From NCBI RefSeq assembly GCF_012849375.1, contig NZ_CP051684.1, positions 1-64,000 on the forward strand: a stretch of DNA of 64,000 nucleotides, read 5' to 3'. This document shows, piece after piece, positions 7,034-22,211 of this stretch (positions within the stretch are counted from its first letter, which is position 1; each line of letters opens with the position of its first letter). Under the pieces are notes generated by a model. It searched no databases and was not told the DNA's origin. It saw only the letters and a list, made by a program, of their open reading frames with translations. The stretch is from Duganella dendranthematis (GTDB lineage: Bacteria; Pseudomonadota; Gammaproteobacteria; Burkholderiales; Burkholderiaceae_D). The position numbers were made by a program, and so were the translations under genes.

Positions 7034-7908
7034 ACATCGCCCGCTTCTACCGCGCGCTTGCGCCTTTGCTGCTCCTTGCCGGGCTGGGGCTGCACACCGC
7101 CGCCCTTGGCGCCGACTGCGAAAATCCTGCCATGCTACGGATTTCGATCATCCCGTCGGGAGACCTCAAGAAGGACATGCTCGCCCATCAGCCGCTGCTG
7201 CAAGGGCTGCGCGCGGCCCTCGGCATCCCGGTCGAGATTTACGCCCCACCGTCCTACGGCGCGGTGGTGGAAGGACTGCTGTCCGGCGCCATCCAGCTGG
7301 CCCGCATGGGACCAGCCAGCTACGTCGCGGCCAGGAAGGCCGATCCGCAACTCACGCCGTTCGCCAGCTTCGAGCATAAGGCCAACGCCTACCAGCCAGC
7401 CGGCGCCTTCTATTACTCGCTGCTGATCGTACGGGCCGACAGCGGCATCGGCAATATCGCGGCCGTGCGCGGCAAGCGCCTGGCGCTGGTCGATCCGCAA
7501 AGCACCTCGGGCGCCCTGATTCCCAGACACGTCTTCTCAAAACAGGTCAGCCAGCCGCTGGAATCCTATTTCGGGCAGGTCGGTTATACGGGCAGCCATG
7601 TGCAGTCCATCAACCGCGTACTCGAAGGCCGGGCCGACGCCGCCTTTGTCGCCAGCGTCAATCTGGCGGCGGTCCTCAGCGATCCGGCCGCCATGCAAAA
7701 AGTCCGCGTGATATGGCGCTCGCAAGCTTTTCCCCTCGATCCATTTGTGTACCGGGGCCAGCTGTGCGGGGGCCTGAAGAAAAAGATACGTGACGTTTTC
7801 CTGACAAACGATGGCGCGCGCCGCGCCGCCGTGCTGGAAAATATCGATGGTGTGCGATTCGTGCCGATCTCGGATCAGGACTACCAACCTGTTCGCGATA
7901 TCTACTGA
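7030..7908 (+). CDS. PhnD-like periplasmic substrate-binding protein
   Basis: A 292-residue protein with a signal peptide (about 1-28, ending LGA) and a PhnD/SsuA-type binding fold: SIIPSGDLKKDMLAHQPLLQ, then ARMGPASYVAA and LALVDPQSTSGALIPR, patterns of phosphate/phosphite/phosphonate binding proteins. No permease or ATPase is nearby. Its start codon overlaps the stop of the GGDEF-EAL gene, so the two are co-translated. A signalling role, presenting a ligand to the periplasmic domain of the cyclase, is more plausible than transport (inference). The 3' end overlaps the convergent pseudopilin gene by 7 bases. Confidence 0.88.
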   Translation: MNIARFYRALAPLLLLAGLGLHTAALGADCENPAMLRISIIPSGDLKKDMLAHQPLLQGLRAALGIPVEIYAPPSYGAVVEGLLSGAIQLARMGPASYVAARKADPQLTPFASFEHKANAYQPAGAFYYSLLIVRADSGIGNIAAVRGKRLALVDPQSTSGALIPRHVFSKQVSQPLESYFGQVGYTGSHVQSINRVLEGRADAAFVASVNLAAVLSDPAAMQKVRVIWRSQAFPLDPFVYRGQLCGGLKKKIRDVFLTNDGARRAAVLENIDGVRFVPISDQDYQPVRDIY

Positions 7909-8393
7909 GTCGTGGCGGCGGATTTGCTGACGGCCGTGAAGCGCCACTCTGAAATTTTCTGCCGGCCCGCCAATCCAGCAAAGCGCGGCGGGAAATTACC
8001 GATTTTGACTGGCTTCGCATCGGACAGGCTGTACACCGCCAGCACGCCGACTTTGCCGTTCAAATAGATGATGCCCCACTCCGCGCCGCCCGTCATGGGA
8101 TCGACATAGATGCGCCGCAGGTGACGGCGCACGCCGGGGAAACGCGGATCGCGCAGCAGTTCGTTCAGCGATGGTGGCTGCGTCGGCATACCGGCCGGCG
8201 TGGCGTCGGCATAACTTTGCAGCGCGTCGCTGTAGGCGGCGCCGATATCGAGCAGTTGCTGCTCGGCCCTGCTGCGCTGGATAACCGAACCCATTTTCAG
8301 GGTAGCCGCCGTCGCCATGCCGATGATCGCCACCAGAATGATCAGGCTCAGATAGGTGAAACCGTTTTGACAGCGTGAGCGACGCACAGACAT
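7902..8393 (-). CDS. Type II secretion-like minor pseudopilin (last gene of cluster)
   Basis: A 163-residue protein with a type IV prepilin N-terminus: a short basic leader, the G^F cleavage site, then a hydrophobic helix (GFTYLSLIILVAIIGM). The usual glutamate at position +5 of the mature protein is replaced (FTYLS), as in GspK/GspX-type tip or otherwise atypical pseudopilins. The rest is a small soluble domain with no recognised motif. The start overlaps the stop of the preceding pseudopilin (TAATG at 8393). It ends the ten-gene cluster that begins at gspG. Confidence 0.8.
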   Translation of the reverse strand: MSVRRSRCQNGFTYLSLIILVAIIGMATAATLKMGSVIQRSRAEQQLLDIGAAYSDALQSYADATPAGMPTQPPSLNELLRDPRFPGVRRHLRRIYVDPMTGGAEWGIIYLNGKVGVLAVYSLSDAKPVKIGNFPPRFAGLAGRQKISEWRFTAVSKSAATTQ

Positions 8394-8764
8394 TACCAGT
8401 CAGCGTAAGGCTTGCCACTGCGGTCGTTGCCCACCGCGCCGCTGCGAATGTTATAGACCCCGCCTTTGCTGCCATCTTCCGGCGGCACGATGATCCACGC
8501 CGTATCGCTCTCCGCCACTGGGTCATACGGCAGCGCGCGCAGATATTTTTTCTCCACCAGTTGATCCAGCGAATCCGGATAGCGTCCGGTGTCGCCGTAA
8601 TACTGGTCGATCAGCGAACGCATATTGTGCAGGTTATCGGCCAATACGGTTTCCTTCGACTTGTCCACGCTTGGAAAGTAACGCGGCACGGCGAGCGTCA
8701 ACAGCAAGGCGATAATCCCCAGTACCACCAGCAGTTCGATCAGCGTGAAGCCTTTGGTTTTCAT
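8393..8764 (-). CDS. GspG-like pseudopilin
   Basis: A 123-residue pseudopilin with a very short leader (MKTKG^[14 protein letters not shown]), the canonical glutamate at mature position 5 and a GspG-like body (TGRYPDSLDQLVEKKYL, LPYDPVAESD). An ATG at 8773 is also in frame; 8764 is preferred because it leaves GGAAATGG as a ribosome site and a two-base gap after the upstream stop. It lacks the full calcium-site region of true GspG. Probably a minor or alternative subunit of the short pilus fibre. Confidence 0.85.
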   Translation of the reverse strand: MKTKGFTLIELLVVLGIIALLLTLAVPRYFPSVDKSKETVLADNLHNMRSLIDQYYGDTGRYPDSLDQLVEKKYLRALPYDPVAESDTAWIIVPPEDGSKGGVYNIRSGAVGNDRSGKPYADW

Positions 8765-8766
8765 GG

Positions 8767-9240
8767 TCACCATTTCCGATACGGTATGCCGTTCAAGCCG
8801 CTCTTGTCACTGATGCTGAAGACATCGTAGACGTCCTCGCCCTCGCGCGGCGCATTGGCTTCACTGGCGTAACTGCGCTTGCCCCACGTCTGCGCCTCGC
8901 TCAGCGTCGCATCCGAATTGAACGGATCGCGCGGTATGCGGCGCAGGAAATAGATCTTGGCATGCCGCGGATTTTGCAGGTCGGGCACACCTTCCACCAG
9001 CATCTCCAGCGTTTTCGGATAACCGCTGGCGGCCAGGGTTTTGGTGATGCGGCCCTGATCGTAGGCTTGTTTGTAGGCGTCCAGCGCAGCGCGGATGTCG
9101 TGCAGGGCTTCGCGCAGATCCTGCTCCTGGCGACGCTGCACCACCACCTGCGCGGTCGGGATCACCAGAGCGCTCAGCAGGCCAAGGATGGCCAGCGTCA
9201 CCAGCAGCTCGATCAGCGTAAAGCCACGCGCGCGCATCAT
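8767..9240 (-). CDS. GspG-like pseudopilin
   Basis: A 157-residue pseudopilin: MMRARG^[14 protein letters not shown] with Glu at mature position 5, then a long helix ([20 protein letters not shown]) and a globular part with [11 protein letters not shown]. The frame is open 59 codons upstream into the secretin gene, but the prepilin leader fixes the start at 9240, 7 bases after the secretin stop. It is the first of three consecutive pseudopilin genes at the cluster's 3' end. Confidence 0.87.
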
Positions 9241-9247
9241 GTTTCGC

Positions 9248-11095
9248 TTACTGCTCTGCCGGGGCAGCGGCAGGTGCAGGTGCAGGTGCAGGTCGCACCG
9301 TGCCCGGTGGCGGCGGCAATACGACGTCGGCGCGTGGCGCCGGATCCGGACGGCGGCGGAAGCTGGCATCCGTGCCGGCCGAGAATTCCGCTGCAGAGGC
9401 TTCCGGACGCTGCACATTGCGGATCAGATGCGGCGTAATCGACAGCACGATTTCGGTCTTCGCATTGTCGTCACGCTGGCTGCCGAACAGGCGGCTGATC
9501 ACCGGCAGTTCGCTAAAGCCGGGAATCTTGTTCGACGAATTGCGCTCCTCGTTATTGATCAAGCCAGCCAGCACCTGGTTCTCGCCATCTTTCAGCTGCA
9601 ACATGGTCGAAGCTTGACGCGTGCCGAGCTGGTAGGCCGTGGTGCCGTTCTTGGTGGTGATGGTGTTGACCAGATTACTGACTTCCAGCTGCATGCGGAT
9701 TGCCACTTCGTTGTTCAGATAGATGGTCGGCTCGGCGTTCAGGGTCAACCCGACTTCCACGTAAGTGACCGAGTCGCTGGCAAAGCCGCCCACGCCGGAC
9801 GACACGGTAGAGGTGATCACCGGCAGCTTGTCGCCGATGACGATCTTGGCCTTCTCTTTGTTGCGCACGCGGATGCGCGGATTGGCCAACAGGTTGGAGT
9901 CGTTGTCGTTCTTGTTGGCGTTGACGCCCAGCTGCACGCCGGTCACACTGATGGTGTCCGGGTTCAGGTTTTTCAGGTCGCGCACCGTGATGCCGGCGCC
10001 GCCGGAAGTCGACAGCGGTGCGAAGTTCAGCGACGTTGGCCATACCACACCCAGGTCCATCAAGCTGGAACGCTTCACTTCCAGGATCTCCACCTCCAGC
10101 ATCACTTCCGGTTCCGGCGTATCCTGCAGCGCAATCAGGCGCTCAGCCAGACGGATCGCTTCCGGCGTGTCTCGCAGGATGATCAGGTTAAGTTTTTCAT
10201 CCACCACCACGTCGCGCGACTTGAGGATGGTCTTCAGCGTATTGGCCACCAGCTTGGCCTCGGCGTTCGCCAGGAAGAAGGTCTTAACCGTCATCTCCTG
10301 GTATTCCTTCAGCTTGGCCGCGATGTTCGGATAGATCAGGATGGTGTTGGCGTCCATGACTTGCTGCTCCAGCTGATTGGTCAGCAGCAGGAAATAGATC
10401 GCCGATTCCACGGTGCTGTTCTTTAGCAGTATCGTGGTTTTCTGGTCGGTCTTCACGTCCTTGTCGAATACAAAATTCAGGCCGGAGCGGCGCGAGATGA
10501 TTTCAAATACCTGCTTCAGCGGCGCGTCACGGAACTCGATGCTGATCGGCTGCCTGTAGCTTTTCGCCAGGCCGGTTTCCGCCACGGGCGGCGCGCTCTT
10601 GTCGGTGACTTCGCGCAGCATCACACGCGCCCTGTCGTTGGCTGGCGTTTCATCCAGCACCGCGTTCAGCTTCTGCTTGGCCAACTCATATTCGCCACGC
10701 CCCAGGTTCTGGGCGGCGGCGTCCAGCAGCTTGCCCTGACGGCTGTCGCGCTCCAGCGCGTGCATGCCGGCGGTGGCGCGCTCGTTTTGCGGGTCCAGCG
10801 CCAGTACCCGGCGGTAGCCCTGCTCCGCCGGCAGCGCGCGGCCTGCAGCCTGCTCGCGCTCTGCGGTCTCCAGCCAACGCCGCGCAGCACTTTCGCGTGC
10901 TTGCGCCAGGGCGGCGCGGTATTGCGCATTACCGGGTTCCGCCTGTACCGCCTCCTGGTATTTCGCCAGGCCGGCTTCGGTCTGGTTCTTCGCGATCAGC
11001 TCATTACCGTCGCGGTAAGCCATTTGGCCGGCGCAACCGCCCAGCAGCATGGCCAACGCCAGACAGCGGCCGATCGTTATCAGGGGGCTCGCCAT
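9248..11095 (-). CDS. Secretin lipoprotein with N-terminal TPR-like region (GspD/MshL type)
   Basis: A 615-residue outer-membrane channel protein. The lipobox LLGGC gives a lipid-modified Cys near residue 21. Residues about 30-180 are helical TPR-like repeats ([34 protein letters not shown]). An STN/N0-type domain follows ([20 protein letters not shown]), then N-domains, then the secretin beta-domain ([35 protein letters not shown]) and the C-terminal signature [15 protein letters not shown]. The proline/alanine-rich tail is encoded by hexamer repeats. A GTG at 11098 is in frame; the ATG at 11095 overlaps the upstream TGA and is preferred. The fused TPR part and lipid anchor recall MshL/PilQ-like rather than classical GspD secretins. 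Confidence 0.92.
9271..9293. repeat. Hexanucleotide tandem repeat (CAGGTG, about 4 copies)
   Basis: The unit CAGGTG repeats almost four times near the 3' end of the secretin gene and encodes its Pro-Ala tail. Because the unit is six bases, copy-number change would lengthen or shorten the tail without a frameshift. Confidence 0.8.
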
Positions 11096-11634
11096 CACTC
11101 AAGAACTCCAATATTCATTTGCTGTTGCTGCTTCAAGGGCAGATAGGTTACGGTCATCAGCGGCGGCGCGATCTTTTCAACACGATAAACGCCGTCAATG
11201 ACCGCGTTGTTACGCACCGAATAGGTCTTGTCGCCGCGCGACAGGTAGACTTCCCACGCGCCATCCGCTGCGGCTTTGCCGATGTAGACGAACGGCATGG
11301 GCGGCGCCATCGGTGGCGGTGGCGGCTGGTTCGATGGTGGCGGCGCTGGTGGCGGCGGATTCCAGTTATGGTCCATGAAGATGCCCTCGCCTGCGGCGAA
11401 GGTAGCGTCGCCGGCGTCGCCCACCAGTTCTGCACGCGGGGTCAGGCGCAAAATGGCGGGATCGGCCTGTGCCTTGCCGTCCTTGGCGGATGCGGACGTG
11501 GTCCTGGCCGCAGCCGCCACCGCACTGCGGGTCACCGGTTCGGCAATGTCGCTGACGGGAGCGTTATCGCCGAACAGCACCAGCGCTGCGGCGCCCACCA
11601 GCGCCACGGCCATCGCGATCTGGTAGGGCTTCAT
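11095..11634 (-). CDS. Proline-rich inner-membrane protein, PilP/MshK/GspC-like position
   Basis: A 179-residue protein with one N-terminal membrane helix (AMAVALVGAAALVLFG), a long Ala/Pro-rich periplasmic stretch (NPPPPAPPPSNQPPPPP) and a small C-terminal domain (FVYIGKAAADGAWEVYLS, then KTYSVRNNAVIDGVYRVEKI) of the kind that in PilP/GspC contacts the secretin N0 domain. The call comes from architecture and gene order (pilO-like, this gene, secretin), not clear sequence identity. The ATG overlaps the preceding stop as ATGA. Confidence 0.7.
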   Translation of the reverse strand: MKPYQIAMAVALVGAAALVLFGDNAPVSDIAEPVTRSAVAAAARTTSASAKDGKAQADPAILRLTPRAELVGDAGDATFAAGEGIFMDHNWNPPPPAPPPSNQPPPPPMAPPMPFVYIGKAAADGAWEVYLSRGDKTYSVRNNAVIDGVYRVEKIAPPLMTVTYLPLKQQQQMNIGVLE

Positions 11635-12182
11635 GGTGCGCCATCCTTCAGATACAAGGTGAAGCGCAGCCGCGCCTCAACCGTCGGTTCGGCGATGCTC
11701 TCGCGGCGGAAACCTACTTCATCCAGCGAGGCGAATGGCATCGCGCGCAGGCTTTGCATGGCGAACTGCCAGATGGCCTGATACGGCCCTTTCACCGGCA
11801 GGATGATCTGGTAGGTGCTGACGCGGCTGGCCTTGTCGAAACCAGCCTTGTATTCACCCTGACTCAATACCAGATTGGATTGGGCCGCGAGGTCGAACAA
11901 CAGCTTGACCTGCTGCTCGGCATAGCGCTGCTCTCCCAGCACACCGTAGAACACCGCCAGGTTCTGGTTGGCGGACGGCGGCGCGGGCGACGCTGCCAGC
12001 GTGGAAGGCGCCGGCAAAGGCTGGGCCATCACCCGGGCTTGTGCGGCACTGCGCGGCAGCAGCACTGCCCATGCGGCCACACCGGCTGCGCACAGCATCA
12101 TGGCGAGACAGGCCAGCAGTCCAAGCCGCAGCACAGCGATACGGGCGCGCAGTAGCAGCGCCGCGATTTTCACATTATTCAT
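11631..12182 (-). CDS. PilO/GspM-like inner-membrane assembly protein
   Basis: A 183-residue single-pass membrane protein: a hydrophobic helix at about 15-42 (LGLLACLAMMLCAAGVAAWA), then a ferredoxin-like periplasmic region (YAEQQVKLLFDLAAQSNLVL; YQIILPVKGPYQAIWQFAMQ) as in PilO/GspM. It would form the inner-membrane alignment platform with the PilN-like protein. The ATG at 12182 overlaps the upstream TGA; the frame opens four codons earlier but lacks a better start. Confidence 0.75.
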   Translation of the reverse strand: MNNVKIAALLLRARIAVLRLGLLACLAMMLCAAGVAAWAVLLPRSAAQARVMAQPLPAPSTLAASPAPPSANQNLAVFYGVLGEQRYAEQQVKLLFDLAAQSNLVLSQGEYKAGFDKASRVSTYQIILPVKGPYQAIWQFAMQSLRAMPFASLDEVGFRRESIAEPTVEARLRFTLYLKDGAP

Positions 12183-12736
12183 TTTGCCAGCCATGTCGCC
12201 TCCAACTGGAAGCGCAAGGGCCGGTTCGGGTCCTGCTCATTGATTTCGTGACGGGACAACATGACGCCGCTGAAGCTTTCCTGCTCCTTCAGCGCTTCGA
12301 TGTAGGCCACCATGTCGTCGCTGTTCTTTGTTTCAGCCGTGATTTTCAGGATGCGCTTGCGCGGATCGGGCTCCATCGCGATCAGCGCCACGCTGCGCGG
12401 TGTCGCCGCCAGTACGGCGTCCTGCAGTTCACGCCATGGAAGATTGAGTTGCATGATGGCGTCATTGACGAAGCTCGCCTGCGCTTCGGGAATCGCGACT
12501 TTCGCCACCTCGGGCGGACGTGCCGACAGCGCCGCCACGCGCTCCTGCGCATGCCGCAACTGGTGTTCGCGTTCGTGCTGCTGTTCCAGCAACCGCCAGC
12601 CGCCAAAGCCTGCGCCGGCGCACAGCAGCAGGCCAGCGCCGGCCAACGCCAGGACAGCGGGATGGAGGTGGAACCAGGTGCGGCGCATACCGCGTGGTGC
12701 GAAGTCGATTTTCATGGCGCGTGGACGATTGCTCAT
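12179..12736 (-). CDS. PilN/GspL-periplasmic-like assembly protein
   Basis: A 185-residue protein with a short cytoplasmic N-terminus containing KIDFAPR (resembling the PilN segment that docks to PilM), one membrane helix (LALAGAGLLLCAGAGFGGWR), a heptad-like helix (LLEQQHEREHQLRHAQERVA) and a PilN-like periplasmic domain (VALIAMEPDPRKRILKITAE). The chosen ATG (12736) overlaps the stop of the PilM-like gene as ATGA. The role is inferred from architecture and order. Confidence 0.75.
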   Translation of the reverse strand: MSNRPRAMKIDFAPRGMRRTWFHLHPAVLALAGAGLLLCAGAGFGGWRLLEQQHEREHQLRHAQERVAALSARPPEVAKVAIPEAQASFVNDAIMQLNLPWRELQDAVLAATPRSVALIAMEPDPRKRILKITAETKNSDDMVAYIEALKEQESFSGVMLSRHEINEQDPNRPLRFQLEATWLAK

Positions 12737-13530
12737 GCCGGCTGCTCCGCCAGCGCGCCGCATGGAATGTGCGCGGAACTGCCCACCGGTTTGATCCAGC
12801 TGGCGGGGACGCTGCCATTCACTTGCAGCAGCAAAGGCGCGTCCACTTCCAGCAGCAGCGCTTCGCGTTGCAGCGTCTGCGTCAGCCAGTCATGCCCGGC
12901 GCCGGGCGGAATCGGCAGCGGACGGACGGCGCGCACGCCTTGGCCATCCGCTTCGGTGGCGGCCAGTGTCAGCAACTGCTCGTGCACATGGCCGAACCAA
13001 GCGCCCTTCTTCATGCCACGACGGCTGCGGTTCCAGGCGCTGACAAAGCGCGGCTCAATGGCGACGATAGAAAGCTTGCACTCCTGCGCCACCGCCTGCA
13101 AGGAAGCCAGCAAGGCGCGCGGCACGCCTGCGGCAAAGAATGGTTGCGTCGCAGACCAGTCGGCGGAGACTTGCCACGCGGCCGGCGTTTCACCATACAG
13201 CGACTGGAAGCGCAGGCCCGCGGCCGCCGCCAGGTCTGCCATGTGCGCGGCGCCAGGCGGCGGCGTGACACGCCACATGCGCGTCAGTTCATCCGCCAGC
13301 ACAATGCTGACCGGCCATCCTGCTGCGTCCAATTCGCCCAATATTGCGCGCAGCGCGTTGGCGATGGCGTCGAAGGGATGGTCGGCGGAAGGCGCGATCG
13401 CCTGTGTGGCCAACGTTTCCGCTGCAGCGCTGGCGGCACGGCCGAAGCCACGCCAACGGCGCACGCGCTGCACATTGACTGCATGCGGCCCCACGTCGAT
13501 GCGCAGGAATTGTCCAAAGCCTCTACGCAT
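12733..13530 (-). CDS. PilM/GspL cytoplasmic-domain-like protein
   Basis: A 265-residue soluble protein placed between the ATPase and the PilN-like protein, the PilM position. It opens with FLRIDVGPHAVNVQRVRRW, reminiscent of the phosphate-1 region of actin-like PilM/GspL, and contains WPVSIVLADELTRMWRVTPP and a later KLSIVAIEPRFVSAWN. The ATP-binding motifs are weak, so it may be a degenerate scaffold. It overlaps the end of gspE by 8 bases. Confidence 0.62.
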   Translation of the reverse strand: MRRGFGQFLRIDVGPHAVNVQRVRRWRGFGRAASAAAETLATQAIAPSADHPFDAIANALRAILGELDAAGWPVSIVLADELTRMWRVTPPPGAAHMADLAAAAGLRFQSLYGETPAAWQVSADWSATQPFFAAGVPRALLASLQAVAQECKLSIVAIEPRFVSAWNRSRRGMKKGAWFGHVHEQLLTLAATEADGQGVRAVRPLPIPPGAGHDWLTQTLQREALLLEVDAPLLLQVNGSVPASWIKPVGSSAHIPCGALAEQPA

Positions 13531-15202
13531 GCAAAGTCACCCGTTTGATTTCCGTTAGCGTGGTGCCGCCACGCCTGACCAGTTCCAGCGCCGCCTGGCG
13601 CAGGCTGCGCGTGCCGTTCTCGTAGGCGGCCTGCTTGATCTGGCGGATCGGCCGCTTGTCGACGATCAGTTCGCGAATTTCGTCGTTCAAGGTCAGTATC
13701 TCGGCGATCGAGCGGCGTCCCTTGTAGCCGGTGCCGCGGCAATCGCCACAGCCCTTGCCCTGCATGAAGCGGTACGCATGCACGTCGGCGCGGGCCAGGC
13801 CGGCGCTGGCCAGCTCCTGATCGTCCGGCGTGTAATCGGTGGCGCAGTGCGGGCAATTGATGCGCACCAGGCGCTGGGCCCAGATGCCGTTCAGCGCCGA
13901 CACGAAAGCATAAGGATCGATGCCCATGTGGGTGAAGCGGCCGAACACGTCGAACACATTATTCGCATGCACGGTGGTCAGCACCAGATGGCCTGTCAGC
14001 GCCGACTGCACGGCGATTTCCGCCGTCTCGCGGTCGCGGATTTCGCCGACCATGATCTTGTCCGGGTCATGCCGCAAGATGGAGCGCAATCCTTTGGCGA
14101 AGGTCAGTCCCTTCTTCTCATTGACCGGAATTTGCAGGATGCCGGGCAGCTGGTACTCGACCGGATCTTCAATCGTGATGATCTTTTCGCGGCCGTTATG
14201 AATTTCGGTCAGCGCCGCGTACAGCGTGGTGGTCTTGCCGGAGCCGGTCGGCCCGGTCACCAGCAGCATGCCGTAAGCCTCCTGCGCCAGCGTGCGCAGC
14301 GTGACCAGCGAGGGCGCGTCGAAACCCAGCGCCTCCAGCGTCAGCGCGCCATAGGCCTCAATCATGGCGCGCTTGTCGAGGATGCGGATCACCGCGTCCT
14401 CGCCGTGGATACTCGGCATGATGGAGACGCGCAGGTCGATCTCGCGGCCATTGACCTCGACACGGAAGCTGCCATCCTGCGGCACGCGGCGTTCCGCAAT
14501 ATCCAGTTCCGCCAGCACCTTCAGGCGCGAGATGATCTGTTCCGCGACCTCGATGCCGTTGACCGAGGTGGCGTGATCCAGCACGCCATCGACACGGTAC
14601 TTGACCGCCAGGCCGCCGGCCGTGCTTTCCAGGTGAATGTCTGAGGCGCCGGCTTTCAGCGCGTCGTACAGTGTGGAGTTGACCAGCCGGACCGCCGGGC
14701 TGGCGCCCTCCGACACCGAGGCAAACGACAGCACCGTCGCCGTCTTGCCATCGCGCCGGCCTTCGCTGGCGCCGGGCAGCAGCGAGTCGGTAGCGCGCGC
14801 CGATTCCTCCTGCTTGGACAGGTAAGCGTGGATATCCGCGTGCAGCGCCAGCCGGATGGCCAGCGGCGCGCTCGGCGTGGCGCGCGCATGGGTGCCGAGC
14901 CAGGTTTGCAGATCGAGATCGAACGGGTCGGCGATCACGCCCACCACCGCGCCGTCGCCGCCGCGCAGCAGCACGCTGGCGCGCGCCATCGCCTGCGATA
15001 GCGGCAACAAGTCCCAGGCCGGCTCGTATGCCAGCATATCCACCGTCTCCAGCACCGCCATGCCGAACGGCTGCGCTAGCGCCTGCACCAGCTCGCGCGC
15101 TTCGGCGCCGGTCAGCGCTTCCAGTTCTTCCACCAGTGTGCGTTTTGATTGGCGCTGCAGGTGACGGGCACGCGCCAGCAGTGCGGTGTCGATCACCGTC
15201 AT
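13523..15202 (-). CDS. gspE: GspE/PilB-type assembly ATPase
   Basis: A 559-residue hexameric ATPase that drives pseudopilus assembly from the cytoplasmic face. The N-terminal MshEN/GspE-N region spans about 1-150. The motor carries Walker A GPTGSGKTTTLY, the Asp box ITIEDPVEYQ, Walker B-like DKIMVGEIRDRETAE and the His box LTTVHANN. The zinc-binding tetracysteine is complete (NCPHC, then GCGDCRGTGYKGRR), which marks the extension-ATPase class rather than PilT. The start overlaps the stop of gspF as ATGA. Confidence 0.95.
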   Translation of the reverse strand: MTVIDTALLARARHLQRQSKRTLVEELEALTGAEARELVQALAQPFGMAVLETVDMLAYEPAWDLLPLSQAMARASVLLRGGDGAVVGVIADPFDLDLQTWLGTHARATPSAPLAIRLALHADIHAYLSKQEESARATDSLLPGASEGRRDGKTATVLSFASVSEGASPAVRLVNSTLYDALKAGASDIHLESTAGGLAVKYRVDGVLDHATSVNGIEVAEQIISRLKVLAELDIAERRVPQDGSFRVEVNGREIDLRVSIMPSIHGEDAVIRILDKRAMIEAYGALTLEALGFDAPSLVTLRTLAQEAYGMLLVTGPTGSGKTTTLYAALTEIHNGREKIITIEDPVEYQLPGILQIPVNEKKGLTFAKGLRSILRHDPDKIMVGEIRDRETAEIAVQSALTGHLVLTTVHANNVFDVFGRFTHMGIDPYAFVSALNGIWAQRLVRINCPHCATDYTPDDQELASAGLARADVHAYRFMQGKGCGDCRGTGYKGRRSIAEILTLNDEIRELIVDKRPIRQIKQAAYENGTRSLRQAALELVRRGGTTLTEIKRVTLHA

Positions 15203-16389
15203 GACATATCTCCCGCCAGATCGAAGATCGGCATGTACAGCAGCACCACGATGGCGCCGACCACCAGGCCGATGGCGGCCATCAGCAGCGGTTCAAAGGT
15301 GCGCGTAAAGCGTTCTATCCAGCGGCCGATTTCGCCGTCGTAGAAGGCCGCCGACTGCGTCAGCATCGGCCCCATATCGCCGGTACGTTCGCCCACCCGC
15401 AGCATGCGCAGCGAGATCGGCGTGGTCAGCTGGCTGGCTTCAAACGCGGTCGACAGCGGCAGGCCCGCTTCCACCGCCACGCGCGCAGTCTGCAAATGCT
15501 GGCGCATGCCGGCCGATACCATGCCCTGCACCGTTTCGATCGCCTGCACGATGGTGATGCCGCCCTCGCTGAGCATGCCGAGCGTCAGGTACAAGCGCGA
15601 TAATTCATAGATGCGCACCCGCTCGCCGATCGCGGGAAGTTTGCCGAGCACGCGCACCACGCCACCGTTGGCCATCAGCTGCCGCACGCCCAGCGCCAGC
15701 AGCGCCAAGGCGGCGCCGATACCGGCCAGCAGCAACGTGGTGTGCGCGGCGGCGAACTGGCCCCAGTTCAGCATCTGCTGCGACAGCCACGGCAGGTTGC
15801 GGCCGGCGCCCTGATAGACCTCGGCGAAGCGTGGCACCACATAGCTGATCAGGAACAGGCTGACGCCGCCGCCGACCAGCAGCAAAATGCACGGGTAAAT
15901 CGCGGCCGACACCAGCTTGCCGCGCACCAGGTCGATGCGCTGCTGGTAATCGATAAACCGCGCGAGTGAGCGCGGCAGGTCCGAGGTCCCCTCGGCCGCC
16001 TTAACGATGCCGACGTACAGCGGCGGGAACAAATCCGGCTGCTCGGCCAGCACGGCGGAAAAGCGCTGCCCTTCGCGCAGGCCGGCCAGCAGCCGCTCCA
16101 GCACGCTGCGCGTGGCCGGATTGCTTTCCTTTTCCAGCAGCGCCTCCAGCCCTTCGACGATGCCCAGGCCGGCGCTCAACAGGGCCAGCAGCTCCTGGCT
16201 GAACAGCACCAGGGAAAGCGCAGCGCGCTTTCCTGCGCGTCTCACCAAACCGTCGCGCACCGGCGTGATGGCGCTGACGAACAGGCCGCGCGCCTCGACC
16301 TGGCGACGGGCATCCGCTTCATCGCGGCCATCGATCACCAGATGGGCGATGACCATCTCGGCCGACAGGGTGCGGACGTCGAACTGCAT
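15199..16389 (-). CDS. gspF: GspF/PilC-type inner-membrane platform protein
   Basis: A 396-residue polytopic protein with two T2SSF domains (about 60-185 and 265-390) and three membrane helices (ILLLVGGGVSLFLISYVV; TTLLLAGIGAALALLALG; LMAAIGLVVGAIVVLLYM). Typical segments are FSQELLALLSAGLGIVEGLE and GERTGDMGPMLTQSAAFYD. It couples the ATPase to pseudopilin insertion. It begins 27 bases after gspG. Confidence 0.95.
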   Translation of the reverse strand: MQFDVRTLSAEMVIAHLVIDGRDEADARRQVEARGLFVSAITPVRDGLVRRAGKRAALSLVLFSQELLALLSAGLGIVEGLEALLEKESNPATRSVLERLLAGLREGQRFSAVLAEQPDLFPPLYVGIVKAAEGTSDLPRSLARFIDYQQRIDLVRGKLVSAAIYPCILLLVGGGVSLFLISYVVPRFAEVYQGAGRNLPWLSQQMLNWGQFAAAHTTLLLAGIGAALALLALGVRQLMANGGVVRVLGKLPAIGERVRIYELSRLYLTLGMLSEGGITIVQAIETVQGMVSAGMRQHLQTARVAVEAGLPLSTAFEASQLTTPISLRMLRVGERTGDMGPMLTQSAAFYDGEIGRWIERFTRTFEPLLMAAIGLVVGAIVVLLYMPIFDLAGDMS

Positions 16390-16416
16390 GGAGATTCAGC
16401 TTTCGGGCGACGTGGA

Positions 16417-16872
16417 TTATTGCGAGACGATGTCGGCATCCTCGCCGCTACCACCCGGCTGGCCGTCACGGCCCAGCGAGATAATCTCGAACTCGGACTT
16501 GCTGCCCGGGGCCTTGTACTGGTACGGATGGCCCCAGGGATCGGGCGGCACGCCTTTTTTCAGGTAAGGGCCGTTCCATTTGGCGCCGGCGCTGGCGGGC
16601 GCGGTGACCAGTGAATTCAAGCCCTCTTCGGTGGTCGGATAACGGCCAACGTCCAGCCGGAAGGTATCCAGCGATTTCTCGAAGGCCTCGATTTGCGCCT
16701 TGGCGATGGTCACTTCCGACTTGCCGAGCTGGGCGAAATATTTGGGCCCGACGTACGCGGCCAGCAAGCCGATGATCACAATTACCACCAGTAATTCCAA
16801 CAGGGTAAAACCGCCGGCCGCGCGCCCTGCCTTGACTCCACATTTCGTTACCACATCCGACTCCTGTTTCAT
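16417..16872 (-). CDS. gspG: Major pseudopilin GspG
   Basis: A 151-residue major pseudopilin: leader ending AAGG^FTLLELLVVIVIIGL with Glu at mature position 5, then the GspG signature (DVGRYPTTEEGLNSLV; GPYLKKGVPPDPWGHPYQY; SLGRDGQPGGSGEDADI) including the acidic C-terminal calcium site. It marks the cluster as type II secretion-like. A GTG at 16854 (codon 7) has a better-placed AGGAG and may be the true start, giving a 15-residue leader. It lies 73 bases after the EpsA-like gene on the same strand. Confidence 0.95.
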   Translation of the reverse strand: MKQESDVVTKCGVKAGRAAGGFTLLELLVVIVIIGLLAAYVGPKYFAQLGKSEVTIAKAQIEAFEKSLDTFRLDVGRYPTTEEGLNSLVTAPASAGAKWNGPYLKKGVPPDPWGHPYQYKAPGSKSEFEIISLGRDGQPGGSGEDADIVSQ

Positions 16873-16945: not shown

Positions 16946-17755
16946 CTAAGCAGCATTTGCCAGCATTAACGGTGCGCGGTCGAACAGCTGGAGCACCATG
17001 CCGCGCGCGATCGCCTGGGCGCGGTTGGAGACACCCAGCAGCCGGTACAAGCGCTGCAAATGATTCTTCACCGTCAAGCCGCTGATGCCGAGGATCATGC
17101 CGATCTCGTCATTGCTCTTGCCTTCCCGCACCCAGTGCAGGATCTCCGCCTCACGCGCGCTGACCGGCCGCGCCAGCGTGCCCGCTTGCGCCTGCGCCTG
17201 CTGGCGGCTGATGCGCTGCAGGCTGATGTGCAGATACGGCAGCAGCAGCTGCAGGAAATATGCGTGGCGCGGACGCGGCCGGTGCGGCAGGCCGAACATG
17301 ACAAAAAACGTGGCGCCGCCCGGCAGGCGTTCACTGCCGTGCATCAGCATATTTTCCAGTCCCAGCTCGCGCAACTCGCCCTGGAACGGCGCCAGCCCCT
17401 GCCCTGCCTTCAACGGATCGGCGTGGGGGCCAGCGTCCAGCAGGGCCGGCAGGCGGCCGCCGCTGCCACGGCAGTGTTGCGCCAGGCGCAGCGCCAGGCC
17501 GTCGTCGCGGCTGCACAGGCGGCTGCGCAAGCCAGCCTCCAACACCGTGCTGTGCAGGCATTCGATGTGCTGCAATTCCTCCTGTGCGCCAAACTGCAGG
17601 CACACCAGCACCTGGTGCGGCAACAGCGCCTGCAACTGCCCCTGGGTCCACAGGAAGAACTGGCGCGCATGCTGCACCGGCAAGGCTGCTTCGATAGCGT
17701 GCAGCAAATACTCCTGCTCCAGCTGGCTGAGGATGACCAACTGCTCCACGCTCAT
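16946..17755 (-). CDS. epsA: EpsA-like LuxR-family regulator
   Basis: A 269-residue protein with an N-terminal region like that of PEP-CTERM/exopolysaccharide-associated EpsA regulators (SQLEQEYLLHAIEAALPV; HARQFFLWTQGQLQALLPH) and a C-terminal LuxR helix-turn-helix (SAREAEILHWVREGKSNDEI; LTVKNHLQRLYRLLGVSNR). The start at 17755 overlaps the stop of the response-regulator gene as ATGA. EpsA genes normally accompany exosortase/exopolysaccharide loci; here the PEP-CTERM protein lies just upstream and gspG just downstream. Control of these neighbours is inference. Confidence 0.85.
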   Translation of the reverse strand: MSVEQLVILSQLEQEYLLHAIEAALPVQHARQFFLWTQGQLQALLPHQVLVCLQFGAQEELQHIECLHSTVLEAGLRSRLCSRDDGLALRLAQHCRGSGGRLPALLDAGPHADPLKAGQGLAPFQGELRELGLENMLMHGSERLPGGATFFVMFGLPHRPRPRHAYFLQLLLPYLHISLQRISRQQAQAQAGTLARPVSAREAEILHWVREGKSNDEIGMILGISGLTVKNHLQRLYRLLGVSNRAQAIARGMVLQLFDRAPLMLANAA

Positions 17756-18450
17756 GCCAGCGCCGCCACAAAGCGATAGCCGCTGCCGCGCACGGTTTCG
17801 ATGCGCTGCTGATTGCCGCTCGGCTGCAAGGCGCTGCGCAGCCGGCCGACGTGGGTGTCGACGGTGCGCTCGTCCAGATAGGCCGCCGTGCCCCAGACCT
17901 GGTCCAGCAACTGGGCGCGGGTATGCACCCGCTCCGGATGGCTCATCAGGAAATTCAACAGTTTGAACTCGACCCGGCCCAGCGCCAGTTCGCGCGTGCC
18001 AGCGGTGACCCGCTGCGTACACGGATCGAGCCGCAGGCCCGCCAGTTGCAGCGCCGCCCCGGCGTCGCTTGCCGCGTACGAGCGGCGCAACAGGCACTGC
18101 ACCCGCGCCACCATCTCGCGTGGGCTGAAGGGCTTGGTCATATAGTCGTCGGCGCCACTTTCCAGCGCCATGATCTTGTCCGGCTCGCCGCAGCGGGCCG
18201 TCACCATCATGATGGGCAGGCTGCGGCTGCGGGTTTGCGCGCGCAGCCGGCGCACCAGCGACAGGCCGGATTGCCCCGGCAGATTCCAGTCCAGCAGCAG
18301 CAAATCCGGCAGCCGGTCCTCCAGCATCAGCATGGCGTTCTCGGCATCGGCGGCACGGCTGATCTGATACCCCGCCATGCCCAGATTGAGCGCAATGAGT
18401 TCCTGGATCGCTGGCGTGCTTTCTATGACGAGAATATGAGCGGCTGGCAT
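17752..18450 (-). CDS. PhoB-like OmpR-family response regulator
   Basis: A 232-residue two-domain regulator. The receiver has its phosphoacceptor in LLLLDWNLPGQSGL, the conserved Thr in MVTARCGE and Lys in DYMTKPFSPRE; the acidic pair near the N-terminus is reduced to one glutamate (VIESTPAI). The winged-helix domain matches PhoB closely (VEFKLLNFLMSHPERVHTRA; YLDERTVDTHVGRLR; TVRGSGYRF). It is not next to a phoR kinase or pst genes, so it is probably a paralogue with another target. The ATG at 18450 follows AGGG that lies inside a perfect inverted repeat. Confidence 0.92.
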   Translation of the reverse strand: MPAAHILVIESTPAIQELIALNLGMAGYQISRAADAENAMLMLEDRLPDLLLLDWNLPGQSGLSLVRRLRAQTRSRSLPIMMVTARCGEPDKIMALESGADDYMTKPFSPREMVARVQCLLRRSYAASDAGAALQLAGLRLDPCTQRVTAGTRELALGRVEFKLLNFLMSHPERVHTRAQLLDQVWGTAAYLDERTVDTHVGRLRSALQPSGNQQRIETVRGSGYRFVAALA

Positions 18451-18475
18451 AGTGTTTCCCTGTAAAGGAAACACT
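18451..18475 (-). promoter_or_regulatory. Perfect 9-bp inverted repeat covering the ribosome site of the PhoB-like gene
   Basis: Arms AGTGTTTCC (18451-18459) and GGAAACACT (18467-18475) flank a 7-base loop and touch the start codon at 18450. On the mRNA the hairpin would bury the AGGGAAA ribosome site. It could be an operator or a translational switch. It has no T-tract and so is not a simple terminator. Confidence 0.6.
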
Positions 18476-18563
18476 ATGCATTAAGCAATGTGGCTTTACT
18501 AATATGATTTCCATCGCCGATTCAGAGGTCTGCGATATAAATCACACCTTCGTTAAGCGTTGC

Positions 18564-19223: not shown

Positions 19224-22211
19224 TTAGAAAGTACCGCTGAAAACTTGGGTGGTGTAGCTGATGGCGGCGGTGCCGGTTTTGCTGAAGGCGACCGGCACCG
19301 TCAGCGATGCACCGGCAGCCAGGCTGCTGGCGTTGGCGGTGATATACGGTACACCGCTGCGGTTGCCGCTGGCATTGACCAGGGTCACGCCGGCTGGCAG
19401 GCCGCCCAGCGACAGTTGCAACGGGCCGCTCAGCGCCGCGCCACTGGTGTTGGTGATGGTCAGCGTGCCGGTCCACTGGTTGCTGGCGCGGGCAAACACC
19501 AGGCCCGAAGCCACTGCCTTGACGCTGGCGCTGACGTCAGTGTTCGGCGCGGCCAGGTTCAGGCTGATCACGACCGGGTCGTGGTCCGAAGCGCGGTACG
19601 GTGCGCTGGTGTACTTGTCCTGCGGCTTGCCGTCGGTGTTGTAATCGACCACCGGTGGTTCGTCGGCGTTGTTATGCCATTCCGCCGCACCCACCACTTG
19701 CGGGCTCAGTGCTGCGCTGGCCAGGGCGTGGTCGAGGTAGCCCGATTCGCCGTTGAAGACAAACGAGTACGGCATGCCGCCGCTGCCGCGCACAAAGCGC
19801 TCCAGCTGGTTGACGAAACCGGTCGCGGTGATGGCGGCGATCGGGTCTTCCATGCCATACGAGTTGAAGTCGCCGATCAGCAGCACCTTGGCGTCGCCGG
19901 CGGCAGCCACCACTTGCGGCACGAAGGCATTCATCAGGCGGTTGGCCTGCTGGATGCGGGTGGCGTTCCAGCAGCTCTGGCTGTCGTTCTGGTCGGCGTC
20001 GGCGCCGCTGCCGGTTGGGCAGCTGCCCTTCGATTTCAGGTGGTTGACCACCAGCGTGAACTTGGCGCCGTTGTTGGCGCGGAAGGTCTGCGCCATCGGC
20101 GGACGGTTGTTGATGGCGTCCGCATCGGACAGCGCGCCGCCCACCGGGGTCAGTGCCGCTGGCTTGTAGATCATCGCCACGCGGATGGCGTCGGTACCGG
20201 TGGCGGCCGGTTTCGGCACCACCGCATAGGTCTTGATACCGGTGCCCGGCGAGATCGCCTCGTTGAGCGAATCGACCAGCTTGGTGACGGTGTAGTCGCC
20301 GCTGTTCTGGATTTCCATCAGGCCGAACACGTCGGCATTGATGGCTTTCAGTTCGCCGACGATCTTGGCGTTCTGGCGGACGTACTCGTTCAGGTTGTCG
20401 GCGCCGCGACAGTTGGACTTGGCGGTGCTGCTGCCCAGCGTGCAGCCGACGCCGGTGTTGCCCTCGACATCGGTGCCGTTGGTGAAGGTGGTGAAGTAGT
20501 TCAGCACATTGGCGCTGGCCACTTTGACGTTGCCGGCTGCCAGCATGGGCGGGTCGGTGCGCGGATTATCCTGCGAGAACACCGGCGCTTCGGTCGGCTG
20601 CAGCTTGAAGCCGGCGCCGCCACCGCCCTTGGCGCCGAAGTCGACCACGCCGGTCAGGCCGGAGACGGTGTCGCCGGCGCGCAGCGAGCCGTCTTCGCCC
20701 AGGTAAGGAATCACGGTTGGGGTGACGAAAATGCCGTCGTCGAGGATGATCTGGTTCTGCTGGTTGGCGGCGGCCTGGGCGATTGCTTCGGCGGTGCGCG
20801 GACGATAGCGGTTCGAGGCGATTTCCAGGCGGCCCGAGGACAGCGTGACTTCGCCGCGGTCGCCCAGATACTCCAGCTGCGACACGGTCAGCGCATTGGT
20901 GAAGCGCACCAGCATGCCTTCGACCTGGCCCAGGTTGGCGAACGGCAGCTGGATGTTGGTCGGCGTGATGCTGATGCCGCCGGCCAGCTTGACGATGGCG
21001 GTGACGTTCTGCATCTCGGTGTACGAGCGCGTGGCGGCGGTTGGCGTGTATTCGGTGATCGAGCCGCTGATGCGGATCTTGTCGCCTACCTGGACCGTGC
21101 CGATGTTGGCGGCGGTGGTGAACACGAACAGGCCGTCCGAAGTCAGCGGATTGCCGTCGCCGTCCGGGTCCTGGATGAAGAAGCCGGAACCGACCTTGGC
21201 GGTGACCACGCCTTCGGTGGTCTGCACGCTGCCGGCGTACGGACTGGTCTCGCCCGGCCCCTGGATTTGCGGAATCGTATGGCTCACTGCGGCTGGCGCG
21301 GCAACGTTGACGCTGATCGCGCAGGTGGCGTCTTGCGCCTGGTCGTTGGCGAACTTGATGGTGACCGGATAGCTGCCGGCCTGCACGCTGGCGGCGATGC
21401 TGAGGCTGGCGGTGGCAGTGCCGCCGGCGGCCGAAGCGGCCAGGAAGTTGACCAGGCTGATGCCCGGCACGGCGGCCGAGGTGATCATCGCGCTATTGAC
21501 GGTGCCGTCCGCATCGGTGGCACTGATGTCGGCGCTGCCGTTGATGCCGAAGGCCAGCGACAGGTTGGCCGGGCAGGTGGTGACGATCGGTGGATGCTGC
21601 GGCACGCCGCAGGCGTTCAGCGGGCTGGCGCTGTTGCGTGGGACTGGCGCACCGGCGGTGAAGTCGTTGCCGTTGTTGTCGGTGTCGGCGCAGCCGCCGC
21701 CGGCGCGCAGCGCGGCGGTGGTATTGCTCAAGCCAGGACCGACGGCCCCTTCAAAATAGCCGGCGGTGCCGAAACCCAGCAGGTCGGCAAAGGTGCCGGC
21801 GGCCGGCGCGGCGCCGGACAGCGCAGTGGTGCTGGCGACCAGGGCCACCTTGCCGGCGGTGCCGCTCAGCGCCAGGCTGCCCGACGCGTCCGCCGTTGGC
21901 AGGTCCACCGTGCCGCCGGTGCCGGCCGCCTCTTGCACCAGGAAATACTGACCATGCTGCAGCACGGTGTTACCGCTCAGTTTGGTGATCTGCCAGCTGC
22001 TGCCGGCCGCGCTGGCGTATTGCACGCTCCAGCCGCTGATGTCTACCGCTTCGCTGCTGCGGTTAAACAATTCGATGAAGTCGTTCTTGAGGCTGGCGCC
22101 GGAATTGCCGCCGCCGCCGTAGACCTGGGAGATCACCACCGGCGAGGCCGCCAGCGCGGGCGCCGAGAAGGCGGCCGCCAAGGCGGCGGCCAGGATCGTA
22201 TTGGTTTTCAT
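19224..22211 (-). CDS. Secreted ExeM/NucH-family nuclease with lamin-tail domain
   Basis: A 995-residue extracellular nuclease. After a signal peptide (1-22) comes a lamin-tail domain (about 24-150: VVISQVYGGGGNSG, NDFIELFNRSSEAVDISGW), an Ig/cadherin-like part, OB-like segments, then an endonuclease/exonuclease/phosphatase domain (about 570-890) with ANVLNYF, the metal glutamate in FGLMEIQNSG, VVNHLKSKGSC, IGDFNSYGMED, YLDHALAS and RASDHDPVV. The last 100 residues are another beta domain. Relatives degrade extracellular or biofilm DNA. Lacking a PEP-CTERM tail, it may leave by type II secretion, possibly by the cluster downstream (inference). Confidence 0.93.
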   Translation of the reverse strand: MKTNTILAAALAAAFSAPALAASPVVISQVYGGGGNSGASLKNDFIELFNRSSEAVDISGWSVQYASAAGSSWQITKLSGNTVLQHGQYFLVQEAAGTGGTVDLPTADASGSLALSGTAGKVALVASTTALSGAAPAAGTFADLLGFGTAGYFEGAVGPGLSNTTAALRAGGGCADTDNNGNDFTAGAPVPRNSASPLNACGVPQHPPIVTTCPANLSLAFGINGSADISATDADGTVNSAMITSAAVPGISLVNFLAASAAGGTATASLSIAASVQAGSYPVTIKFANDQAQDATCAISVNVAAPAAVSHTIPQIQGPGETSPYAGSVQTTEGVVTAKVGSGFFIQDPDGDGNPLTSDGLFVFTTAANIGTVQVGDKIRISGSITEYTPTAATRSYTEMQNVTAIVKLAGGISITPTNIQLPFANLGQVEGMLVRFTNALTVSQLEYLGDRGEVTLSSGRLEIASNRYRPRTAEAIAQAAANQQNQIILDDGIFVTPTVIPYLGEDGSLRAGDTVSGLTGVVDFGAKGGGGAGFKLQPTEAPVFSQDNPRTDPPMLAAGNVKVASANVLNYFTTFTNGTDVEGNTGVGCTLGSSTAKSNCRGADNLNEYVRQNAKIVGELKAINADVFGLMEIQNSGDYTVTKLVDSLNEAISPGTGIKTYAVVPKPAATGTDAIRVAMIYKPAALTPVGGALSDADAINNRPPMAQTFRANNGAKFTLVVNHLKSKGSCPTGSGADADQNDSQSCWNATRIQQANRLMNAFVPQVVAAAGDAKVLLIGDFNSYGMEDPIAAITATGFVNQLERFVRGSGGMPYSFVFNGESGYLDHALASAALSPQVVGAAEWHNNADEPPVVDYNTDGKPQDKYTSAPYRASDHDPVVISLNLAAPNTDVSASVKAVASGLVFARASNQWTGTLTITNTSGAALSGPLQLSLGGLPAGVTLVNASGNRSGVPYITANASSLAAGASLTVPVAFSKTGTAAISYTTQVFSGTF

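Follow-up and report, generated by a model that had tools for sequence, protein, structure and literature searches.

The 64-kb stretch analysed here (the window), which forms the beginning of the single-contig, 6.53-Mb genome of the soil bacterium Duganella dendranthematis (NZ_CP051684.1), carries eleven consecutive minus-strand genes that very probably encode a machine of the type IV filament superfamily resembling the type II secretion system (T2SS). This machine would export folded exoproteins, have its pseudopilins matured by PilD in trans, and form one branch with the Pul/Oxp-type system of Geobacteraceae and the Xcm-type system of Pseudomonas. The window system can be considered the Burkholderiales representative of an atypical T2SS branch that, in the literature searched, has so far been described from two metal-cycling lineages.

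The genes run from position 16872 down to 7902 in the order gspG, gspF, gspE, g8, g7, g6, g5, g4, g3, g2, g1, and their nearest protein matches come from Duganella and its relatives. The first gene of the operon, gspG (16417..16872), encodes the major pseudopilin, with the motif GFTLLELLV and the C-terminus SLG.DG..GG.GE.ADI; gspF (15199..16389) encodes the inner-membrane platform protein (PF00482), and gspE (13523..15202) the assembly ATPase (PF00437, 412.5 bits), with GPTGSGKTTT and a CxxC...CxxC motif whose four cysteines are invariant in 8 sequences. Downstream lie g8 (12733..13530), by its predicted fold an actin-fold adaptor like PilM or the cytoplasmic domain of GspL, the PilN-like g7 (12179..12763, possible start 12736), the PilO-like g6 (11631..12194, possible start 12182), the PilP-like g5 (11095..11634), and g4 (9248..11098), a lipoprotein secretin composed of a TPR region, STN, Secretin_N and secretin domains, and a Pro/Ala-rich tail. 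Three further pseudopilins complete the set: g3 (8767..9240), a minor pseudopilin used as the branch marker, with the motif I.FLR..PRDP...W..RSY.S...P..G.D..D..S...G.NG..Y..W; g2 (8393..8773), a minor pseudopilin with glutamate at position 5 (Glu5; PF07963, 30.1 bits); and g1 (7902..8393), which has no Pfam match and lacks Glu5 (NGFTYLSLIIL), a GspK-like trait. The preliminary description of this DNA had located the named genes, all on the minus strand, correctly, and had counted ten genes where there are eleven. With the first start codons the junctions overlap by 4, 8, 31, 16, 4, 4, 7, and 1 bases, with gaps of 27 and 7, so that the overlaps of 1–8 bases reported in that description hold only if the downstream ATGs of g7 (12736) and g6 (12182) are used, which shrink both long overlaps to 4 bases. 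A promoter scan returned no sigma-70-like site, against 2.1 expected by chance, and was of no informative value.

The gene had been named a true GspG in that description, and rightly so: the protein passes NCBIfam TIGR01710 (172.4 bits, cut-off 88.85), and its C-terminal motif SLGRDGQPGGSGEDADI, taken here to be the calcium site, is similar to the C-terminal motifs of XcpT and E. coli GspG. A sequence rule recognised Glu5 in 48/54 GspG, 61/64 g3, and 53/63 g2 sequences, the remainder being misread or unread by the rule; of the g1 sequences, 52 could be read, and not one has it (6 others were unread). Absence of Glu5 is a trait of GspK. No prepilin peptidase is present in the cluster, as already remarked from the sequence, or elsewhere in the window, and because the cluster has none, pseudopilin maturation must come from elsewhere. 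A Pfam search found three such peptidases in the genome, one beside pilBC and the others near two Tad loci. In a related cluster on a plasmid of Aliiroseovarius crassostreae (L211) the first gene encodes an A24 peptidase, and LanC-like and HopA1-family genes lie nearby.

Since the ATPase, the platform protein, and the secretin reach no equivalog cut-off, NCBIfam does not recognise the branch: the scores fall short for GspE (TIGR02533, 487 < 630), GspF (TIGR02120, 244 < 424), and GspD (144 < 351), for PilB (TIGR02538, 468 < 676) and PilQ (156 < 284), and for MshL (89 < 250). Family libraries gave no support for the PilM-, PilO-, and PilP-like character of the window g8, g6, and g5, and a single Pfam match below the cut-off for the PilN-like g7 (PF05137, 17.1 bits against 22.8). 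These assignments are backed by profile comparison and predicted fold. The best hhalign partners of g7, g6, and g5 are the PilN (59.8%), PilO (88.9%), and PilP (63.6%, residues 112-164) of the type IVa pilus (T4aP), while the partners from the MSHA pilus stay at or below 8.2%. The profiles of GspC, GspL, and GspM match at 9.2% at most, that of GspC matches g5 at 0.9% at most, and there is no single GspL. The best sequence match of g8 is MshI, a weak one (14.7%), and its predicted fold is similar both to PilM and to the cytoplasmic domain of GspL. A syntenic relative of g6 on a Janthinobacterium lividum plasmid carries a PilO annotation. By profile comparison and predicted fold, the platform reads as T4aP/GspL-like, and the MSHA-like platform of the preliminary description had to be abandoned; an MSHA origin is ruled out by the ATPase and platform trees described below together with the profile comparison.

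The secretin g4 matches PF00263 (123 bits) and PF03958 (39.8 bits), with PF07660 (27.5 bits) just below its cut-off. A lipobox with Cys22 stands at its N-terminus; the rule recognised one in 48 of the 52 Burkholderiales relatives, it is visible by eye in the other 4, and a lipoprotein signal also occurs in 3/3 Pseudomonas and 8/9 Geobacteraceae-type copies. The TPR repeats that follow fall short of the Pfam cut-off in the window protein (20.7 and 18.9 bits) and exceed it in several relatives, which agrees with the TPR-bearing lipoprotein secretin noticed earlier. The Pro/Ala-rich tail of the window protein has no cohesin match in Pfam, and the Pseudomonas copies have short C-termini; a C-terminal cohesin domain scores above the cut-off in 8 of the 10 relatives scanned, these eight belonging to Burkholderiales and Geobacteraceae-type genomes and the ten having been picked from 16 with C-terminal extensions of at least 160 amino acids. 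A literature search found no account combining a secretin, a cohesin domain, and type II secretion. PilF and PilW are TPR lipoproteins, and by analogy the TPR region of g4 may act as a built-in pilotin; because lipid anchor and TPR region are both part of the secretin itself, its passage to the outer membrane probably requires no separate pilotin. According to the available part of PMC3542185, HxcQ of P. aeruginosa is likewise a lipoprotein secretin that reaches the outer membrane and needs no pilotin; compared with the Hxc system as described there, the window secretin differs in having the TPR region.

Phylogenetic trees were built for the ATPase (56 rows), the platform protein (33 rows, each locus represented once and the Pseudomonas copies not included), and the secretin (38 rows). 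In the first, the 26 rows of the family, drawn from Burkholderiales, Pseudomonas, Geobacteraceae, and the Aliiroseovarius plasmid, fall into one group (100/100), separate from the reference groups of T2SS GspE (6 rows, 100/99), PilB (5 rows, 97/100), and MshE (own L021 and Vibrio, 100/100); the order among the family, GspE, PilB, and MshE groups is not resolved. In the platform tree the family parts from the references at 97/93, the Aliiroseovarius row having a long branch, and the secretin tree gives a family clade at 100/98, with long reference branches. Reference labels follow NCBIfam cut-offs for L180, L181, L183, and L184, and also, through their secretins, for the genome's own T2SS, PilQ, and MshL loci; the PilB labels of Vibrio, Geotalea, and Pelobacter, the Vibrio MshE label, and every Tad, PilT, and PilU label were assigned by the analyst. 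An unannotated Aeromonas region was not among the references. Left out of the ATPase tree were the family matches L040, L172, L175, and two fragments of L160; the repeats L189 (of L164), L191 (of L160), and L193 (of L157); the second ATPase of L170; L020:14161-16002, the truncated end of the gene in L021; L194, L198, L201, L203, L205, L209, and L220; and the PilT-like second matches of L182 and L186. L202 and L206 are duplicates of each other; from these rows one PilT-like and one PilU-like were retained and served, together with two others, as the outgroup. Systems of Candidatus Manganitrophus, Bradyrhizobium, and a Skermanella plasmid were considered as members and rejected, as their ATPases fall outside the family clade. 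The distinct branch proposed from the sequence alone stands insofar as ATPase, platform, and secretin all lie outside the T2SS, T4aP, and MSHA references; it is not an undescribed one, since the clade also holds clusters fitting Pul/Oxp and Xcm and so would coincide in part with named and described systems. In the literature search, which covered few subscription journals, no paper was found that joins Pul/Oxp with Xcm or treats the Burkholderiales form.

The gene order of the branch is strongly conserved. Among 53 loci chosen for bearing the g3 marker or g8, 40 keep the exact window order of all eleven genes, which excludes chance as the origin of the cluster; ten more follow it with one to three genes undetected, one is rotated, one has g6 and g7 swapped (as read from the analyst's coordinates), and one retains g3 and g1 only. 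The marker is a profile of the C-terminal domain of g3, made from an alignment of 9 sequences with 38 invariant columns. At E <= 1e-6 it was detected in 83 of 200 Burkholderiales genomes, the window genome being one of them, and in 49 of 109 genera, some genomes having two or three copies. In a whole-phylum sample of 398 genomes it was detected in 8, all of them Burkholderiales. A search of 40 relatives found g8 in 22 of 24 other genomes of the same genus; the complete cluster also occurs in other Burkholderiales families, where g8 is 18–25% identical, and in one such cluster (L035) g1 was not found. Five plasmids carry copies as well: a conjugative-type plasmid of Burkholderia ambifaria, two plasmids of J. 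lividum, and those of Eleftheria terrae and A. crassostreae; on three of the five, RHS proteins lie beside the cluster. In one Burkholderiales genome a second GspE/PilB-like ATPase is located directly past g1 (L170:6785-8230, 387 bits).

Outside Burkholderiales, the marker is found in 16 of 50 named genomes, these being part of 80 obtained with a Geobacter pilin probe: P. mandelii, P. sp. TH41, and P. izuensis (E about 1e-48), a Nitrospiria genome, a Nitrospirae genome with a very weak match (2e-4), and eleven Geobacteraceae or other deltaproteobacterial records. The contig-complete Geobacteraceae clusters have the order F-E-[M]-N-O-P-secretin-(g1)-g3-g2, and the frame at the M position of L161, the only one tested, matches Pfam PilM_2 (48.8 bits, cut-off 27). 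Their neighbours include a gene for a doubled-CXXCH cytochrome and genes for an FtsE-type ABC ATPase, EnvC-like, and Ctp proteins. The pul sets of the 'atypical type II secretion system' with OxpG are described with such ABC, EnvC-like, and Ctp neighbours in the available text of PMC3543383, and the system is required there for OmpB secretion, a requirement also stated for pulGPQF in the part of PMC10599522 at hand. From these neighbours and published descriptions the Geobacteraceae clusters probably represent the Pul/Oxp system, the comparison with that of G. sulfurreducens running through other Geobacteraceae clusters. The same ATPase, platform, and secretin clade, the order F-E-M-N-O-P-secretin-pseudopilins, and the lipoprotein TPR secretin are shared with the window. 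The Geobacteraceae clusters differ in that no GspG was detected beside gspF, the pseudopilin order is not that of the window, and the secretins scanned have the C-terminal cohesin that the window secretin lacks. One Geobacteraceae ATPase (L161:4033-5754) has the MshE-type cyclic di-GMP-binding motif NF053729 (42.2 > 38), which does not appear among the matches of the window ATPase. In the Geotalea toluenoxydans draft (L160) gspF, gspE, and the secretin gene are each split into two open frames, by decay or sequencing error.

In P. mandelii and P. sp. TH41 the full set of eleven genes is divided into two parts, which sets these genomes apart from the window: the part from gspE to g1 lies about 14 kb from the gspG-gspF pair, and the latter fits the family profiles (F 512-513 bits, G 235-236 bits). 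Between the two parts in P. mandelii (L319:1289-12500 and L157:231-3499) there is an mnxG-type manganese oxidase operon, with genes for a 1946-amino-acid multicopper-oxidase-domain protein (21.6 bits, cut-off 20.4), a beta-propeller protein, two SCO1/SenC proteins, a periplasmic-binding protein, and a SurA/PpiC protein; P. sp. TH41 (L318) likewise has this giant gene and gspGF. For P. putida GB-1, the available part of PMC11409713 gives the order mnxG, YVTN beta-propeller, SCO1/SenC, and a further electron-transport gene in an operon of six genes, and that of PMC8218464 assigns lactonase-family, SCO, ABC, and SurA-domain genes to it; the content in P. mandelii fits the published operon, and so does the order as far as the sources give it. 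The word 'secretion' is absent from the main text of both papers. Xcm, cited in the accessible portion of PMC4509608 as a novel Gsp-related pathway for the manganese-oxidizing factor, is there the cluster of GB-1 and KT2440, given as a second T2SS of strain WCS358 that escaped detection with P. aeruginosa baits. The synteny with the mnxG operon in P. mandelii and P. sp. TH41 suggests that the Pseudomonas clusters are the Xcm pathway.

With the classical T2SS (the Gsp/Xcp/Pul systems, Pul being that of Klebsiella) the window cluster shares GspG, a GspE/F-type motor, a secretin, and the GspL-like fold of g8, and the Glu5-less minor pseudopilin of that system, GspK, is what g1 resembles. It differs from it in having separate PilM- and PilN-like proteins instead of a fused GspL, a PilP-like protein instead of GspC, a TPR liposecretin, three further pseudopilins instead of four, and a clade of its own. 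The PilM-N-O-P arrangement is that of T4aP, and the ATPase and secretin lie outside the T4aP and MSHA references. MSHA pili have a separate TPR protein; among the eleven genes there is no such protein and no PilT, MshM, or MshN, and the only PF00437 match in the window is the assembly ATPase, with no retraction ATPase PilT. The same genome also encodes a classical T2SS, a T4aP, and two MSHA-type clusters, with secretins above the NCBIfam cut-offs, as well as three ATPase/secretin/platform sets labelled Tad-type by the analyst. None of the first three kinds of system is copied in the eleven genes, because g5-g8 have no match at those loci and the secretin scores no more than 62 bits there; a recent duplication of another own system is ruled out, the best own-cluster match of the ATPase being 332 bits.

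A working model can be outlined as follows. GspE and GspF would assemble GspG into a short periplasmic pseudopilus on a frame of the PilM-PilN-PilO-PilP type, capped by the minor pseudopilins g3-g2-g1, with g1 as a putative GspK-like, Glu5-less tip. The pseudopilus would push folded periplasmic proteins out through the secretin, which, with its lipid anchor and TPR region, would probably dispense with a separate pilotin, and the PilD encoded beside pilBC would mature the pseudopilins in trans. The likely cargo in the window genome would be exoenzymes such as a neighbouring ExeM-type nuclease.

This candidate cargo, a 995-amino-acid extracellular nuclease of the ExeM/NucH family (19224..22211, minus strand; NF033681 545 bits > 300; LTD and Exo_endo_phos domains), is encoded upstream of gspG. 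Between them, at 16946-19217, are arranged in a row two candidate regulators, the LuxR-type EpsA (16946..17755, minus strand; TIGR03020, 176.3 > 170) and a PhoB-like response regulator (17752..18474, minus strand; TIGR02154, 292.1 bits, just below the cut-off of 296.2), and an NF038129 PEP-CTERM gene. Homologues of the nuclease lie beyond gspG in the same-genus loci L038, L044, and L045, and homologous subtilases of 1061-1222 amino acids in 5 of the 7 other same-genus copies read (L039, L040, L041, L043, L045), an assignment based on a Pfam run on L043. The flanks of 51 of the 53 loci, from 49 genomes (L270 and L290, with fewer than nine genes, were dropped), were compared with 40 control regions from 11 genomes. 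Signal-peptide genes of at least 400 amino acids make up 36/424 flanking and 21/686 control genes (odds ratio 2.9, p 8e-5), and at least one occurs in 24 of the 51 loci against 8 of the 40 controls (p 0.006); signal-peptide genes of any size number 97 and 86, respectively. The cargo of its own that the preliminary description thought possible is consistent with this enrichment.

Thirty-five neighbours were scanned with Pfam, namely 32 of the 36 genes of the flank test (those of L262 and L288 and two of L299 being left aside), the window nuclease, the L043 subtilase, and L033:14280-16502; among the first 25 of 54 families there are GH18 chitinases (4), astacins (2), S8 peptidases (2), RHS proteins (2), multicopper oxidases (2, both from L289), an M4 peptidase, an alkaline phosphatase, and a GDPD protein. 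In L268, L272, and L033, three genomes of one family, a large gene lies about 200-280 bases from gspG; in L033 it encodes a GH18 chitinase with CBM5/12 according to Pfam, and the GH18 motif is also present in the other two. The two multicopper oxidase genes of L289 (915-4097) are adjacent to each other beside the cluster of one Burkholderiales genome. RHS-repeat and other very large repeat proteins adjoin the cluster in L213, L214, L210, and L176, all from Burkholderiales, the large neighbour in L213 having SpvB/TcdB-type domains.

Several observations weigh against a secretion machine of this branch. The nuclease is separated from gspG by the two regulators and the PEP-CTERM gene, and the genome's own canonical T2SS could export it. 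Signal-peptide genes of at least 700 amino acids are not enriched (3/424 in flanks, 6/686 in controls); the signal-peptide rule is crude, the analyst's own, and passed a GGDEF-EAL protein (L172); the controls represent 11 genomes against 49, and the near-copies L298 and L299 were counted twice. The 35 scanned neighbours also include proteins unlike cargo: OEP (4), ShlB/POTRA (3), a TonB receptor, and the GGDEF-EAL protein. As regards the extent of the branch, the whole-phylum sample missed the Pseudomonas copies found in the named-genome search, and 34 of the 50 named genomes, including other Pseudomonas and three Geobacteraceae/Desulfuromonadaceae records, have no marker match. In hhalign, g8 matches no PilM convincingly by sequence, and no experiment on a Burkholderiales member was found in the literature.

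In favour of a surface pilus, an MSHA-like adhesin, are the split PilM/N/O/P frame, which is as in T4aP, and the TPR region of the secretin, which is reminiscent of MshN and PilF. A true GspG with a T2SS-type C-terminal motif, a g1 devoid of Glu5 in 52/52 relatives read, a cluster without PilT, and an ATPase outside the MshE pair make such a pilus unlikely, as does the publication of a Geobacteraceae relative as needed for OmpB secretion (PMC3543383, in the part available). An ordinary second T2SS, merely divergent in sequence, would explain why GspG exceeds the T2SS cut-off, why the GspE score of the ATPase (487) slightly exceeds its PilB score (468), and why the fold of g8 also matches GspL; it is nevertheless highly improbable, as the cut-offs for GspE, GspF, and GspD are all missed, the family stands apart from the T2SS references in three trees (with the backbone not resolved), the matches to GspC/GspL/GspM are 9.2% at most, and the PilM and PilN parts are split. 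There is a very slight chance that the main secreted proteins are tied to an exosortase/PEP-CTERM matrix, to which EpsA and the PEP-CTERM gene next to gspG and the PEP-CTERM genes beside the relatives L043 and L214 would point; one such gene nearby is weak evidence, because the genome has 30 PEP-CTERM matches, and the Geobacteraceae and Pseudomonas copies lie among unrelated genes.

Beyond the T2SS-like exporter preferred here, a bolder proposal is possible, though doubtful: that the branch ranks beside T2SS and MSHA as a bacterial type IV filament class in its own right, common in Burkholderiales and spread by plasmids, whose secretin would combine lipid-anchored TPR pilotin and pore, in many long-tailed relatives (8 of 10 scanned) with a cargo-docking cohesin, and would hold large enzymes at the surface. 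If so, manganese oxidases, chitinases, peptidases, and RHS proteins would be exported and then surface-held. Six kinds of bacterial type IV filament are distinguished in the available part of PMC10191384, namely T4aP, type IVb pili, T2SS, Com, MSHA, and Tad, and 884 systems were left 'generic' by Denise et al. (PMC6668835, in the portion available); some of these could gain a name, and a function open to testing, from a coherent branch whose eleven genes are strictly ordered, whose marker is frequent in the Burkholderiales sample and occurs on plasmids too, and to which the metal-cycling pathways of Geobacter and Pseudomonas would also belong. What is newly seen is the breadth, the fixed order, and the plasmid spread of the branch, the lipid-anchored TPR secretin, and the linkage to mnxG, by which gene order connects an mnxG-type manganese oxidase with a likely exporter. 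The branch also lends itself to studying how secretins get to the outer membrane when no separate pilotin is present, and whether a cohesin domain can retain cargo.

Some further features were noted in the same genome. A lone PilB-like ATPase gene (G000:C1:1020058-1021212, L022), with no platform or secretin match nearby, groups in the ATPase tree with an unassigned Pseudomonas ATPase (100/99). On the other side of the cluster, a convergent plus-strand gene (7030-7908) ends 7 bases inside g1; it looks PhnD-type, and its product is presumably a periplasmic phosphonate/phosphate-binding protein. Beside it, at 4691-7033, a GGDEF-EAL protein is encoded.

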